Part shown: positions 52,810 through 58,156 of the stretch, in pieces
Layout: every line of letters starts with the position of its first letter
Numbering within the stretch: the first letter of the stretch is position 1
Origin: Mesonia aestuariivivens
Lineage (GTDB): Bacteria > Bacteroidota > Bacteroidia > Flavobacteriales > Flavobacteriaceae
Length of the DNA: 64,000 nucleotides
NCBI RefSeq assembly: GCF_019311235.1
Contig: NZ_JAHWDF010000015.1
Location: 1 to 64,000 of the forward strand
Direction: 5' to 3'
The notes under the pieces: model-generated
Told to the model about the DNA's origin: nothing
Seen by the model: the letters and a program-made list of their open reading frames with translations, nothing else
The model's database searches: none
Made by a program: the position numbers and the translations under genes

Positions 52810-53892
52810 TTATTCGTTTAAAATTCTCTCTTGATGCTGAATAGATTCTTGATGAATCGCTTTAAATATCTTTAAGATAAATTCTTCACTTAGGTTATGT
52901 TCTTTACCATCTAAAATCATTTTTCCTAAAATCTCATTCCAACGTGAAGATTGAAGTATGGCTACATTTTTCTCTTTTTTTACATCACCAATATCATCTG
53001 CCACCTTCATTCTTTTTCCCAAAACATCTAGCAACTGATGATCAATTACGTCTATTTTAGCACGTAAAGAAGCTAATTTCTCTTTAAAATCTTCACTTTG
53101 AGAAGCTTCTTTTCTAATTTTTAAATCTCTCGTCATTTGCCCTAATGCATTGGGTGTAATTTGCTGATTGGCATCACTCCAAGCGTTATCGGGATCGTAA
53201 TGGGTTTCTACCATAATCCCATCGTAATTGAGATCTAAAGCAGTCTGACATAAATCTGTAATGATATCTCTTCTTCCTGCAATATGAGACGGATCTAAAA
53301 TTAACGGCAAGTCTGGAAACTTAGTCTGCAGATCAATCGCGATTTGCCATTCTGGATTGTTTCTATATTTTGATTTTTCGTAGGTAGAAAACCCTCTATG
53401 TATTACCCCTAAATTCTTAACATCTTGCTTATAAAAACGTTCTACTGCACCTAACCATAATGATAAATCTGGATTTACCGGATTCTTAATTAATACCGTT
53501 TTATCGGTTCCTTTTAAAGCTTCTGCGATCTCCTGAATATTAAACGGAGACACGGTTGTTCTAGCGCCAATCCATAAAATATCTACATCGTGTTTAAGCG
53601 CTAAATCTACATGAATTGGATTGGCCACTTCTGTCGTGGTTAACAAGCCAGTTTCTTCTTTAGCTTTCTGCAACCATTTTAATCCTAAAGAACCTACGCC
53701 TTCAAAATTACCTGGACGAGTTCTAGGTTTCCAGATACCGGCACGCAATACGCTAGTATCTGTTTCTTTTAACTGGTGCGCAATCTTTAACACTTGCTCT
53801 TCAGTTTCGGCGCTACAAGGTCCTGCAATCACTAAAGGGTGATCTAAATTAAATTTATCTAACCAAGTTCTTAATTCTTTTTTATTTTCCAT
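52810..53892 (-). CDS. Bifunctional DAHP synthase (type I-beta)/chorismate mutase (type II)
   Basis: A 360-residue fusion enzyme. Residues about 1-262 are a KDO8P/DAHP synthase barrel (PLVIAGPCSAETEEQV, RAGIWKPRTRPGNFEG, WIGARTTVSPFNIQEIAEAL, LILDPSHIAGRRD), making the first shikimate-pathway intermediate. Residues about 268-355 are an AroQ-type chorismate mutase (LASLRAKIDVIDHQLLDVLGKRMKVADDIGDVKKEKN), giving prephenate. In such fusions the mutase domain often confers feedback control by chorismate or prephenate. It follows tyrA after 196 bp that hold a composite repeat element. Confidence 0.95.
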   Translation of the reverse strand: MENKKELRTWLDKFNLDHPLVIAGPCSAETEEQVLKIAHQLKETDTSVLRAGIWKPRTRPGNFEGVGSLGLKWLQKAKEETGLLTTTEVANPIHVDLALKHDVDILWIGARTTVSPFNIQEIAEALKGTDKTVLIKNPVNPDLSLWLGAVERFYKQDVKNLGVIHRGFSTYEKSKYRNNPEWQIAIDLQTKFPDLPLILDPSHIAGRRDIITDLCQTALDLNYDGIMVETHYDPDNAWSDANQQITPNALGQMTRDLKIRKEASQSEDFKEKLASLRAKIDVIDHQLLDVLGKRMKVADDIGDVKKEKNVAILQSSRWNEILGKMILDGKEHNLSEEFILKIFKAIHQESIQHQERILNE

Positions 53893-54088: not shown

Positions 54089-54937
54089 TTAATTTATTCC
54101 GTTTAATACTTTTTTAATGTGATTGGTATTTTTCATTTCTTCAAATAATTTTTCAAAATCATCCTGTTCCATTAAGTTTTTAAATTCATTTAGATTCTGA
54201 ATGTATTCCGTTAAGGTTTCTAACACATTTTCTTTATTCTGTTTAAAAATGGGCGACCACATTGCTGGTGAACTCTTTGCTAGCCGTACCGTCGATGCAA
54301 AACCACTTCCGGCTAAATCAAAAATATCTTTTTCATTTTTCTCTTTGTCAAGCACTGTTTTTCCAAGCATAAACGCACTGATATGCGATAAATGTGAAAC
54401 ATAAGCAATGTGTTTATCATGCGAATGCGGATCCATATAACGAATTCGCATTCCCAAACGTTGAAAGATATCAAAAGCTATTTCCTGTAACTTAAATGCT
54501 GTTTTTTCAACTTCACAAACAATCATGGTTTTGTTTTGGTACAACTGAGCAATCGCTGCTTCAGGACCAGAAAACTCAGTCCCCGCAATGGGGTGTGCTG
54601 CCAAGTAATTTCTGCGTTTTGAATGATTTTTAACCGATTCACAAATCTTTTCTTTAGTTGAACCCGTGTCTAGCACCAAGGTATTTTCGCCTATATGATC
54701 TAAAACTTGAGCAAGCACTTTTATACTTACATCTACAGGAACAGAGATAATTACTACCTGTACCGTTTTCAGGTCTTTTAGCGTAGCCACCTCATCGATA
54801 AGCTGTAATTCTTTGGCTTTTTTTAAATTCTGTTCATTTTTATCAATTCCAACAATTTTCACATTGTCCATAGCAGATTTCAGGTCTAACGCCATCGAAC
54901 CTCCTATTAATCCTATTCCTACAATTGCTACTTTCAT
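54089..54937 (-). CDS. tyrA: Prephenate dehydrogenase
   Basis: A 282-residue NAD(P)-dependent oxidoreductase converting prephenate to 4-hydroxyphenylpyruvate for tyrosine. The Rossmann start is VAIVGIGLIGGSMALDLKS, followed by VVIISVPVDVSI, LDTGSTKEKIC, AAHPIAGTEFSGPEAA and the active-site helix KHIAYVSHLSHISAFMLG, all typical. There is no C-terminal ACT domain. It overlaps the aminotransferase gene by 4 bp. Confidence 0.95.
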   Translation of the reverse strand: MKVAIVGIGLIGGSMALDLKSAMDNVKIVGIDKNEQNLKKAKELQLIDEVATLKDLKTVQVVIISVPVDVSIKVLAQVLDHIGENTLVLDTGSTKEKICESVKNHSKRRNYLAAHPIAGTEFSGPEAAIAQLYQNKTMIVCEVEKTAFKLQEIAFDIFQRLGMRIRYMDPHSHDKHIAYVSHLSHISAFMLGKTVLDKEKNEKDIFDLAGSGFASTVRLAKSSPAMWSPIFKQNKENVLETLTEYIQNLNEFKNLMEQDDFEKLFEEMKNTNHIKKVLNGIN

Positions 54938-56085
54938 GCTTCTACCCGTTTAATGGCTTTTTCTATAGTTGCTTCATCTACACAAAGCGAAAACCGAATA
55001 TAACCTTCACCTGCGCTTCCAAAAACCGTTCCTGGTGCGGCAAACAAATGATGCGTTTGCAAAATATGCTCTGAAAATTCTTCTGAACTTTTATAGCCTG
55101 ATGGAATTTTTGCCCAAACAAAAAGACCTACCAAAGCTCGTTCTTCTAATTGGCAACCTAATTTCTGAACCAGTTCTAAAAGTTTTGTTTTTCGGTTTTG
55201 ATAAATAAAATCTAAGTTTTTAAACCAATCTTCATTTTCATTAAGCGCCACGGCAGCTCCCAACTGAATGGGCAGAAACATTCCGCTATCCATATTACTT
55301 TTCACCTTTAAAATAGATTGTAAATTTTCTTTGCTTCCTAATACAGCTCCAACGCGCCAACCAGCCATATTAAAAGTTTTACTTAGAGAATTGAGCTCCA
55401 ATCCCACTTCTTTAGCTTCTGGATAAGCCAGTAAACTATCGGGCTGATCGTTTAAAATAAAACTATACGGATTATCATTAACCAATAAGATATGGTGTTT
55501 TTGAGCAAATTTAATAGCATCGTGAAATACATTTTTGCCGGCTTTTGCTCCTGTGGGCATATGTGGATAATTAAGCCACATCATTTTCACTTTACTTAAA
55601 TCTTGTTGCTCTAATTCTTGAAAATTAGGTTGCCAACCTTGTGCTTCTTTCAACTCATAAAAAACAGGCTTAGCGCCCACCAATTTCGTGACCGAGGTAT
55701 AAGTAGGATAACTTGGATTAGGAATAAGCACCTCATCGCCTTCATTTAAAAAAGCCATAGAAATATGCATCACTCCTTCTTTGCTTCCCAGCAATGGTAA
55801 AATTTCGGCATGAGCATTTACATCTACCTGAAAATTGCGTTTATAGAAATTAGCAAAAGCTTCTCGCAATTCATCTACGCCACGATAACTTTGGTATTGA
55901 TGGGCTTTTTCTTGTTTGGCTGCCAACTGCATTTGCGCCACCGCATCAAAAGGGGGCGGTAAATCTGGGCTACCTATTCCTAGGTTAATCACCTCGATTC
56001 CGTTGTGTTGCATTTCTCTAATTTCTTGCAACTTTTTACTAAAATAGTACTCTTTGATAAACGCTAACCTATTGGCGGGTTTCAT
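54934..56085 (-). CDS. Class I/II pyridoxal-phosphate aminotransferase (aromatic pathway)
   Basis: A 383-residue PLP enzyme. The substrate arm INLGIGSPDLPPP, YPTYTSVTKLVGA, NYPHMPTGAKA (the conserved Asn-Pro region, here with His-Met), NDNPYSF and the PLP lysine in SLSKTFNMAGWRVG are present. It lies between pheA and tyrA with overlaps on both sides (17 bp and 4 bp), so it probably transaminates phenylpyruvate and 4-hydroxyphenylpyruvate to Phe and Tyr. Sequence alone would also allow an aspartate or LL-DAP aminotransferase; context decides. Confidence 0.9.
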   Translation of the reverse strand: MKPANRLAFIKEYYFSKKLQEIREMQHNGIEVINLGIGSPDLPPPFDAVAQMQLAAKQEKAHQYQSYRGVDELREAFANFYKRNFQVDVNAHAEILPLLGSKEGVMHISMAFLNEGDEVLIPNPSYPTYTSVTKLVGAKPVFYELKEAQGWQPNFQELEQQDLSKVKMMWLNYPHMPTGAKAGKNVFHDAIKFAQKHHILLVNDNPYSFILNDQPDSLLAYPEAKEVGLELNSLSKTFNMAGWRVGAVLGSKENLQSILKVKSNMDSGMFLPIQLGAAVALNENEDWFKNLDFIYQNRKTKLLELVQKLGCQLEERALVGLFVWAKIPSGYKSSEEFSEHILQTHHLFAAPGTVFGSAGEGYIRFSLCVDEATIEKAIKRVEA

Positions 56086-56905
56086 GGTTTTTGTTTTTAT
56101 AGATTCCTAATATTTTATGTGCTTCTGAAACTTTTTCTAAAGCTGTAATCGCCTCTAAAAATGTTGCTAATTCTTTAAAAATAACATCGATAAAAAATGA
56201 ATATTTCCAAGGTTCATCTACAATGGGTAAGGATTGTATTTTTGTCATATCTAACCCAAAACGGTCGAGTATCTGCAAGGCTTTTAGCAAACTTCCTTGT
56301 TCATGTTTCAAAATTAATTTTAAAGAAGCTTTATCGGCTTGGGCTACTTGCTCTCCTTCTTTTGAAAGGATTAAAAAGCGAGTCGTATTGGTTTGTTGTG
56401 AATGAATACTTTCTGCTAATACCTTCAGCTTAAAAATTTCAGCAGCAGTTTTACTCGCAATAGCTGCCGTATTTCTGAGTCCTTTTTGGGCTATACGCTT
56501 AGCCGCTTCTGCCGTATCATTATCTTCAATTAGCTTGATATGCGGATATTGCTTAAAGAAGTTTTTACATTGCAACAATGCGATGGGATGCGAATACACT
56601 TCAGTAATACTTTCTAAAGTTTCACCCGGCAGCGCCATTAAATTCATATTTACAGGAATGTAATGCTCGCCTATTACTTCTAAACCATATTCATCTATAT
56701 AAGCATAGTTAGGCAAAATAGAACCTGCGGTAGAATTTTCTATCGCCATTACCGCTTTGGTCACCAAATTTTGCGAAACTTGTTCTGCCAATTCTTTAAA
56801 ACTAGCGCACATCGAAACCTGAACTTGTTCTCCAAAATATTCTCGTGCCACCTGATGATGAAAAGAACCTTCTATGCCTTGTATTGCGATCACTCCGTTT
56901 TTCAT
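56069..56905 (-). CDS. pheA: Prephenate dehydratase
   Basis: A 278-residue enzyme making phenylpyruvate for phenylalanine. The catalytic domain (about 1-180) has IQGIEGSFHHQVAREYFG, MAIENSTAGSILPNY and the key TRF motif in QQTNTTRFLILS. A C-terminal ACT domain (about 195-272) carries SLKLILKHEQGSLLKALQIL and LDMTKIQSLPI, the usual Phe-sensing site. There is no fused chorismate mutase; that activity is on the DAHP synthase protein. It is preceded by a leader ORF and a terminator that end just before its start codon, which implies transcription attenuation. Confidence 0.95.
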   Translation of the reverse strand: MKNGVIAIQGIEGSFHHQVAREYFGEQVQVSMCASFKELAEQVSQNLVTKAVMAIENSTAGSILPNYAYIDEYGLEVIGEHYIPVNMNLMALPGETLESITEVYSHPIALLQCKNFFKQYPHIKLIEDNDTAEAAKRIAQKGLRNTAAIASKTAAEIFKLKVLAESIHSQQTNTTRFLILSKEGEQVAQADKASLKLILKHEQGSLLKALQILDRFGLDMTKIQSLPIVDEPWKYSFFIDVIFKELATFLEAITALEKVSEAHKILGIYKNKNHETRQ

Positions 56906-56911
56906 TTTTTA

Positions 56912-56947
56912 TCAAAAAAAATCCCGATAAAAATTTATCGGGATTTT
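56912..56947 (-). terminator. Attenuator (intrinsic terminator in the pheA leader)
   Basis: On the minus-strand transcript AAAATCCCGATAAA pairs with TTTATCGGGATTTT around a very short loop and runs into eight T residues, ending 7 bp before the pheA ATG. A competing pairing uses leader bases 56986-56998 (GATAGAAACGGGA) with 56926-56943, an RNA segment starting TCCCGATAAATTTTTATC. It covers the 5' arm, so terminator and antiterminator exclude each other. Confidence 0.85.
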
Positions 56948-56974
56948 AATAATTACTTTATAAGTGTTAAGTAT

Positions 56975-57052
56975 TTACATAGCGCTCCCGTTTCTATCTC
57001 TAAAGAAGAAATAAAAATAAAAATAAGCGTTCCAAGTAAATACGTTTTTCAT
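56975..57052 (-). CDS. Aromatic leader peptide of the pheA operon
   Basis: A 25-codon ORF with ATG start and TAA stop in the leader of pheA. Residues 10-17 read YFYFYFFF, eight aromatic codons in a row; with Phe5 and Trp7 this makes ten aromatic residues out of 25. The end (residues 18-25) is RDRNGSAM. Codons 19-23 contain the strand that can pair with the 5' arm of the terminator (56912-56947). This is the layout of classical Phe attenuators such as pheL of enterobacteria: a ribosome stalled for lack of charged tRNA-Phe or tRNA-Tyr would free the antiterminator. The regulatory role is inference from architecture. Confidence 0.8.
   Translation of the reverse strand: MKNVFTWNAYFYFYFFFRDRNGSAM
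56986..56998 (-). promoter_or_regulatory. Predicted antiterminator strand in the pheA leader
   Basis: GATAGAAACGGGA on the minus strand. CGGGA pairs with TCCCG of the terminator 5' arm, and GATAGAAA pairs with TTTTTATC (one G-U) a few bases further on, leaving an ATAAA bulge. It lies directly after the aromatic codon run, where a stalled ribosome would decide folding. Confidence 0.55.
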
Positions 57053-57144
57053 TCTGTTTTCAAATATTGGACTAAATTATAATTTAATTTTTAGATAGAA
57101 AATATTTTTTAAAGTTTTTAGTGAAAATTTTAAACTCAACTACC

Positions 57145-57250: not shown

Positions 57251-58156
57251 ATGGGTATTGAAGTAAAAGGTATTTCTAAATTTTATGGAGCACAGCAAGC
57301 GCTAAAAGAAATTTCTTTTGAAATTAATAGCGGAGAGATTGTTGGTTTTCTAGGCCCAAATGGTGCTGGAAAGTCAACCACCATGAAAATTTTGACTGGT
57401 TATTTGGCTGCTTCAAAAGGGGTCGCAAAAATAAACGGTCTTGATATTGCCACCGATAAACTCAAAATTCAGCAGCAAATTGGATATCTGCCAGAACATA
57501 ACCCATTATACTTAGACATGTATGTTCGCGAGTACTTAGGTTTTAACGCTAAAGTTTACCAAACGCCCAAAGAAGAGATTGAAAAAGTGATTCAATTAAC
57601 CGGATTAACTCCAGAAGCTAATAAAAAAATTGGAGAGCTTTCTAAAGGTTATCGCCAACGGGTAGGTTTAGCTACGGCTTTATTGCATCACCCAAGCGTG
57701 CTTATTTTAGATGAACCCACCACCGGTTTAGATCCCAACCAACTAGTAGAAATAAGAGAACTCATTAAAAAAATAGGCAAAGAGAAAACTATTTTTCTAT
57801 CTACCCATATTATGCAAGAGGTAGAAGCCGTTTGCGATCGTGTAATTATTATAAACGATGGTGAAATTGTAGCCGATAAAAAGCTTAAAGAACTTACAGA
57901 AGATAACGAACAAATAGTTGTTGTTGAATTTGATTACCGCATAGAAATGATTGCGCTACAACGCTTACCTCAACTTAAAGAAGTAAAAAACCCTGCTGGT
58001 TTTGTCTACGAAATTACCTTTAAAACTTCTAAAGACATGCGCCCAGTGGTTTTTGATTTTGCCCATGATAACGGACTTAAAATACTTCAACTTCATCAGA
58101 AAAATAAAAACCTAGAAGAGCTATTTAGAGATTTAACACAGAAACAAAAAGTTTAA
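57251..58156 (+). CDS. gldA: Gliding motility ABC transporter ATP-binding protein GldA
   Basis: A 301-residue ABC ATPase. Walker A is GPNGAGKST (about 37-45), the signature is LSKGYRQRVG, Walker B is LILDEPTTGLDP, and the switch is STHIMQEVEAVCD. It matches GldA, which in F. johnsoniae forms a transporter with GldF and GldG and is needed for gliding; gldF and gldG are not within this window. The C-terminal 80 residues are the family extension. Its last 4 bp overlap the end of metF on the other strand. Confidence 0.9.
   Translation: MGIEVKGISKFYGAQQALKEISFEINSGEIVGFLGPNGAGKSTTMKILTGYLAASKGVAKINGLDIATDKLKIQQQIGYLPEHNPLYLDMYVREYLGFNAKVYQTPKEEIEKVIQLTGLTPEANKKIGELSKGYRQRVGLATALLHHPSVLILDEPTTGLDPNQLVEIRELIKKIGKEKTIFLSTHIMQEVEAVCDRVIIINDGEIVADKKLKELTEDNEQIVVVEFDYRIEMIALQRLPQLKEVKNPAGFVYEITFKTSKDMRPVVFDFAHDNGLKILQLHQKNKNLEELFRDLTQKQKV

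Follow-up and report, generated by a model that had tools for sequence, protein, structure and literature searches.

In the window, by which we mean the whole 64,000-nt stretch of DNA that was analysed, the pheA operon is very probably preceded by a ribosome-mediated transcription attenuator. The element is read in this way because its short open reading frame (ORF), its terminator, a co-varying antiterminator, their spacing and the codon content of the ORF hold over many species. It consists of an ORF with control codons (the translation of which is predicted), an intrinsic terminator and a mutually exclusive antiterminator with compensating changes. Stalling of the ribosome, the efficiency of termination and the direction of regulation are what we infer from this sequence-level record. 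The features of the locus are as follows, in the order of transcription:

57061..57068, minus strand: candidate Bacteroidota-type -7 promoter box, AATATTTG, with one mismatch to TAnnTTTG (motif position)
56975..57052, minus strand: leader peptide ORF, MKNVFTWNAYFYFYFFFRDRNGSAM then TAA, 25 codons (read from the sequence)
57036..57043, minus strand: region 1, GUAUUUAC, 5' arm of the outer protector hairpin (MFE and centroid folds)
57002..57025, minus strand: control codons 10-17, Y F Y F Y F F F; the other aromatic codons, F5 and W7, lie upstream
56986..56990, minus strand: region 2, 5' core of the antiterminator, CGGGA (duplex and covariation analyses)
56971..56978, minus strand: 3' arm of the outer protector hairpin, GUAAAUAC, overlapping the stop codon (RNA fold)
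56914..56947, minus strand: intrinsic terminator, stem 56947-56918, U-run to 56914 (terminator scan)
56939..56943, minus strand: region 3 core, UCCCG, common to antiterminator and terminator (terminator scan, duplex and covariation analyses)
56069..56905, minus strand: pheA, prephenate dehydratase (PF00800)
54934..56085, minus strand: class I/II aminotransferase
54089..54937, minus strand: tyrA, prephenate dehydrogenase
52810..53892, minus strand: DAHP synthase-chorismate mutase fusion (DAHPS-CM), the sole DAHP synthase found in the genome

The initial annotation had described a 25-codon ORF with an eight-codon Tyr/Phe run plus F5 and W7, and this is borne out, codons 10-17 being all Tyr or Phe. 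It had also placed an intrinsic terminator with eight T before pheA, which stands (T-run 56921-56914), although the arms of 14 bp and the gap of 7 bp do not: the terminator scan gives a stem of 13 pairs (4 GC) with a loop of 4, and the T-run ends 8 nt before the pheA ATG at 56905. The stem is nearly identical on both strands, and the plus-strand scan finds it again. The alternative pairing that had been claimed exists as well; it was drawn longer (GATAGAAA...), and the core examined here is CGGGA (56990-56986) with TCCCG (56943-56939).

Transcription would start just upstream of the leader ATG. With charged tRNA-Tyr and tRNA-Phe in ample supply, the ribosome would pass codons 10-17, run on to the stop codon and cover region 2, upon which the terminator (3:4) would form and RNA polymerase would halt before pheA. 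With either charged tRNA in short supply, the ribosome would instead stall on the run and open the protector hairpin (1:2), which makes region 2 available for pairing with region 3; the terminator would then fail to form, and pheA, the aminotransferase gene, tyrA and DAHPS-CM would be transcribed. The RNA from 57070 to 56909 folds with -38.6 kcal/mol (z = -4.94, with none of 200 shuffles equally stable); a 78-nt piece with the antiterminator alone is not unusual (z = -1.26, 15 of 200 shuffles). In the window, the 2:3 pairing amounts to a short duplex of 5 bp (-8.7 kcal/mol), and the fragment with the antiterminator is the less stable fold (-11.0 vs -15.3 for the terminator), so antitermination would have to be kinetic; the terminator is the more stable alternative in 42 of the 114 leaders collected here (see below). 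Compared with dinucleotide shuffles, these 114 leaders have a mean z of -2.95 (below -1.64 in 94), and a leader that folds better than its shuffles fits the protector hairpin.

The genes for pheA, the aminotransferase and tyrA overlap end to start, and DAHPS-CM comes next in the same direction. A second PF00793 match in the genome scores as KDO8P synthase, and type II DAHP synthase has no match in the genome of the window. Control of the whole aromatic cluster, as proposed in the initial annotation, is supported by synteny, the order pheA-aminotransferase-tyrA-DAHPS-CM being found in 27 of 32 stretches. PheA is 87-88% identical in the nearest named relatives: Mesonia mobilis, M. oceanica, a Mesonia MAG and an entry under the name Salegentibacter sp. 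R32.

The proposal also depended on a transcription start that leaves the leader ORF within the transcript. The -7 box consensus, TAnnTTTG, was taken from PMC9723704, where the group is moreover said to be without Shine-Dalgarno sequences. Motifs that agree with this consensus in 5 or more of its 6 defined positions (one mismatch allowed), scored together with their position, are enriched 15-29 nt before the leader ATG (98 vs about 19 expected, 108 leaders), which suggests that the leader ORF is inside the transcript; a second, weaker excess occurs 35-54 nt before the ATG. Counting exact TAnnTTTG within 80 nt was tried too (18/114 leaders vs 21/449 control stretches), the positional version with one mismatch being clearer. 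An A is present at -3 of the leader ATG in 90 of the 114 leaders, and no G-rich column precedes the ATG. Given the size of the ribosome footprint, on which the spacing argument draws, region 2 would be exposed by a ribosome stalled on the run and masked by one that has reached the stop codon: region 2 starts at a median of 12.5 nt past the last aromatic codon, its end precedes that of the stop codon by a median of 11 nt, and a median of 24 nt separates the stop from the start of the terminator.

The conservation of the aromatic run was followed in a family set of 100 pheA upstreams, of which 96 are distinct (L010-L013 repeat L005-L008). The set comes from the better-matching part of the 226 pheA-bearing genomes of the family and so is not a random sample. 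ORFs that begin with ATG, have 8-60 codons and lie within 500 nt were scored by the aromatic codons per 10-codon stretch, Trp being counted as aromatic (a small bias). A score of at least 6 is reached in 98 of the 100 upstreams, as compared with about 3 per 100 in first-order shuffles and 5/100 on the reverse strand, and a score of at least 8 in 76, as compared with 0.05 per 100 in shuffles. An alignment across the family had been proposed as a check, and the run has held. The two upstreams that fall short are L056, where the leader lies further out, about 570 nt before pheA, and L075, in which no leader was found. The order and number of the aromatic residues vary between leaders.

When the sampling is widened, leaders are found in 114 of 141 distinct pheA upstreams (7 duplicates dropped), i.e., in 101/103 from the same family, 11/14 from the "same class" and 2/22 from outside the class, the class and phylum samples being best matches plus 20 hand-picked places, so that these counts are not rates. 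No leader was found in three of the 14 "same class" upstreams, nor in either of the two from another family of the same order. The two leaders outside the class (L121, L124) stand before pheA genes 42-43% identical to that of the window, which would fit the acquisition of the cluster plus leader by transfer. A terminator lies between ORF and pheA in all 114 cases (vs 7/570 shuffled intervals). A covariance model of the terminator only (R1, 9 pairs, built from 75 family leaders) matched at E <=1e-7 in 119 of 149 evenly drawn family genomes, a count made by hand that includes the training genomes and is irrespective of nearness to pheA. At weak scores R1 is unspecific, as 35/35 genomes, pheA-less ones included, match at E <=0.1, and at two such weak matches (L166, L168) there is nothing aromatic. 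In one genome (G142), an ORF of 197 aa (L262, 246-1028) is located just downstream of the aromatic leader, with pheA about 900 nt further on; by eye, this ORF resembles a REP-associated transposase.

The stems were also to be checked for covariation in close relatives, and they do co-vary, in duplex energies and in pair counts alike. Over the 114 leaders, region 2 pairs with its own terminator arm at a mean of -11.7 kcal/mol, compared with -8.5 when the leaders of other species are used; the own pairing is within the best 5% of its own mononucleotide shuffles in 103 leaders and beats the median swap in 94 (Wilcoxon p = 2.7e-18, kinship uncorrected). Duplex energies were used because the longest perfect complement, which is confused by A/T runs and G-U pairs, is too blunt a test (own 6.2, swapped 5.3, shuffled 4.8). 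Antiterminator cells are paired in 85.1%, as opposed to 26-45% when slid by 1-3 columns. The pair counts come from an alignment of 75 leaders selected from 101 family leaders, in which pair 92-156 is A-U in 39, G-C in 32, G-U in 4 and broken in none, and the terminator pair that shares this column varies in step with it. The outermost antiterminator pair is broken in 54/75, and two of five covariation measures (double-change pairs and further pair types) are not clear of shuffles (50 and 87 of 500). Relative to the leader ORF, the purine core that marks region 2 falls in frame 0 in 62 leaders, in frame 1 in 17 and in frame 2 in 22 (past the stop in 9, unclassed in 4), and its occurrence in all three frames indicates that it is the RNA, not the peptide, that is conserved.

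Several other explanations of the element can be weighed against these data. It is conceivable, if extremely improbable, that the terminator merely ends transcription coming from elsewhere and that the ORF arose from T-rich codons lined up by chance, as the DNA is AT-rich and the terminator stem is nearly the same on both strands; however, the frequency of the run in true upstreams relative to shuffles and to the reverse strand, the covariation of the antiterminator and the divergent orientation of the upstream neighbour (57251-58156) all speak against it, and conservation, as judged from the sequences compared, weighs strongly against a chance ORF. Nascent-peptide arrest in the manner of TnaC, in which the ribosome is halted by the nascent chain itself and the ligand is a free aromatic amino acid, would account for a short peptide before a biosynthetic operon and for a conserved aromatic run. 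It is nonetheless very improbable, considering that the aromatic residues differ in order and number, that the part after the run is in different frames by group, and that the response of an arrest peptide would be inverted for a biosynthetic operon.

The strong structure of the leader RNA could also suggest that the sensor is another RNA element (a T-box, a riboswitch or a protein-bound leader) and the ORF incidental. This finds next to no credence, as no Rfam family reaches its gathering score at the leader and the codon content tracks the downstream genes. The 11 sub-threshold Rfam matches there, with E values no higher than 1, all fall well short of their cut-offs; His_leader scores 22 bits against 49, and no Phe or Trp leader is among the 11. 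No T-box or amino-acid riboswitch was found at the leader, the matches at gathering score in the window being a SAM riboswitch (63205-63093) and one tRNA. The missing match to an Rfam leader denies membership of a sequence family, not the mechanism, and ribosome-mediated attenuation, for which the initial annotation had the mechanism right, is the reading retained here.

Which amino acids the attenuator reads is a separate matter. The joint sensing of Phe and Tyr suggested in the initial annotation fits, both codon types being present in 114/114 leaders. It is possible, but less sure, that W7, a Trp codon common in Flavobacteriaceae leaders, adds Trp as a third input, because the operon holds the only DAHP synthase found in the genome; a Trp input is supported by this sole enzyme together with the Trp leaders of pheA-less genomes described below. 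The alternative, that attenuation responds to Phe and Tyr only and W7 is a neutral aromatic residue, has a little under an even chance: Trp codons are few (78 vs 1022 Phe/Tyr codons in the 114 leaders), and 39 of the leaders have none. That such Trp-free leaders belong to Trp auxotrophs was considered and failed, since TrpA is present in 45/45 pheA-bearing relatives tested (25 with Trp-free and 20 with Trp-bearing leaders) and in the genome of the window. With TrpA in all 25 of those tested, the Trp-free leaders make a Trp input optional at best. Against a neutral W7 stand the 75 of 114 leaders with a Trp codon (under a score that counts Trp, the small bias mentioned) and seven pheA-less genomes in which the leader of DAHPS-CM has Trp codons and no Phe/Tyr run.

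At the level of sequence, pheA-less genomes represent a natural codon-swap experiment, which is new here and is the natural counterpart of the codon swap made at the bench. Within the genus of the window, 10 of 16 genomes are without a match to the pheA of the window though 90-99% complete, and Phe/Tyr synthesis was probably lost in those ten, once or more often. A total of 29 family genomes without a pheA match was followed (the 10 of the genus and 19 others, three unlisted ones being left out). In at least two of them pheA is probably off the contig end, as G076 has a tyrA fragment beside DAHPS-CM, and G130 an aromatic leader, at a contig edge. A strong DAHPS-CM match is kept in 24 of the 29, of which 22 are readable (the upstreams of G076 and G130 being cut). 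In seven of these 22, DAHPS-CM is preceded by an ORF with Trp codons and a terminator, without a Phe/Tyr run. Six contain WW (L169, NFWWHH; L170, NWWLQ; L173, AWWHM; L175, IWWYI; L176, YWWHP; L188, TWWSN), and the seventh, found by eye, has a single Trp (L171, LIRWRH). The sequence TGGTGG occurs in 7/22 upstreams, those of the six and of L184, as compared with 0.46 expected and 0 on the other strand; no terminator was found in L184.

The gene after DAHPS-CM is rsgA in six of the seven Trp-leader loci, an arrangement shared with the window, and in four of those six dtd comes next too, within the stretch covered. On the DAHPS-CM tree, six Trp-leader genomes form one clade (99/96) that adjoins L235 (87/98, not starred), a genome that keeps pheA and the aminotransferase and has the leader MSNKTLHTAFYFWYFFFLK. 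L188 stands apart, and at least two changes are required by the starred branches; L188 sits on a long branch, however, and its placement is unsure, so the second Trp-leader lineage is one that rests on a single long branch. TrpA is present in 7/7 Trp-leader genomes, as against 6/15 readable ones in which the leader is missing (Fisher test uncorrected for kinship, p = 0.010 one-sided and 0.017 two-sided). Three of these six leaderless genomes with TrpA have a second DAHP-synthase-like gene directly after trpA; no match to a second DAHP synthase better than about 3e-11 was found in the Trp-leader genomes. G001, G003 and G007 have TrpA, a match to a second DAHP synthase at a weak level at most, and no leader that was found. 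At L266, L267 and L268, all pheA-less, the separate DAHP-synthase-like gene directly after trpA encodes 334 aa, 31-32% identical to the enzyme of the window. The 2:3 pairing of the Trp leaders is not significant in L169 (49/200 shuffles as good) and marginal in L175 (19/200), with 0 to 7 of 200 in the other five, and region 2 begins 22-32 nt past the Trp codons, further than in the pheA leaders.

Two genomes without a pheA match have a YYYY leader with a terminator before a small phenylalanine hydroxylase (MKNLNNTYYYYPILTRRIGQ in L199 and MNFIATSYYYYFFIHQKKN in L200), their 2:3 pairings being equalled by 4 and 1 of 200 shuffles, respectively; a Tyr-controlled conversion of Phe to Tyr is possible. 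The hydroxylase has a match in 53/80 genomes; 30 loci were returned and the gene was found in 29, with a Tyr leader in those two only, the start used being doubtful in a few loci such as L224. A third small hydroxylase (L201, in a genome with pheA) has no such leader, and a fourth (L202, in the pheA-less G103) was not readable.

The control codons thus follow gene content, as some pheA-less relatives carry Trp leaders, two pheA-less genomes carry the YYYY hydroxylase leaders, and in the genome of the window a WWW leader stands before a trpE-like gene. A broader reading, given close to an even chance as a whole, is that one Bacteroidia-wide attenuator family reads all three aromatic amino acids on behalf of the shared entry enzyme and that its codons are rewritten when a branch is lost. 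They would be Phe/Tyr(/Trp) where pheA, tyrA and DAHP synthase are together, Trp-Trp where DAHP synthase is alone, and Tyr only before phenylalanine hydroxylase where this is the likely tyrosine route. If true, the amino acids that a strain produces, and those that limit it, could be predicted from codon content.

In the pheL-pheA attenuator of enterobacteria, a leader ORF with a run of Phe codons precedes pheA, and protector, antiterminator and terminator are alternative structures. The element of the window is alike in its aromatic run, its three alternative structures and its position before pheA. It differs in that the run is a mixed Tyr-Phe one, related leaders often having a Trp codon, in that it heads a pheA-aminotransferase-tyrA-DAHPS/CM cluster, in having no G-rich column before the ATG and in not matching the Rfam Phe_leader. 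The ilvGMEDA and thr leaders are multivalent attenuators, and like them the present leader combines codons for several products of its operon; unlike theirs, the codon set is aromatic and differs with gene content in relatives. Lopatovskaya and colleagues are said to have published a comparative study in 2010.

A 2021 transcriptome study of Flavobacterium psychrophilum (PMC9723704) names a structured 5' element before pheA that has no Rfam hits and is said to be conserved in other genera of the Flavobacteriaceae; the study also presents strong clues that leader-peptide attenuation operates ahead of operons for amino-acid biosynthesis. This is likely the same element as that of the window, in view of the same gene and family, identity being judged from the description. 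Attenuation before pheA in this family is therefore not wholly new, and the passage of that study on the pheA element gives neither a leader sequence nor its covariation and codon content, nor any occurrence beyond the family. The initial annotation had missed this paper, as well as the possible role of W7 and the Trp-codon leaders of pheA-less relatives. Of two other papers, one mentions that Bacteroides thetaiotaomicron has short ORFs which recall leader peptides (PMC7366714), and the other states the general codon rule (PMC1183508). In the literature searched, with most subscription journals outside it, the mixed aromatic leader, its spread in Bacteroidia and the codon switch were not found described. 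The record over 114 distinct leaders would make classical attenuation very probably a main control of aromatic synthesis in the group. As the element of the window matches no Rfam family, a covariance model and a leader-codon rule could enter annotation, from which likely limitation and auxotrophy could be read in genomes.

Elsewhere in the genome of the window (L155, contig C23), a WWW leader, MKNLTVHTWWWNNLRQNS, with a terminator (AAGGCTTGTC...GACAAGCC plus a T-run) precedes a trpE-like gene, which shares its contig with trpA and lies about 5 kb ahead of it; an antiterminator for this leader was not found (129/200 shuffles as good). The SAM riboswitch in the window (RF00162, 71.9 bits, minus strand) lies just 5' of an ORF (63036-62029), after which come the genes for methionine synthase and MTHFR.
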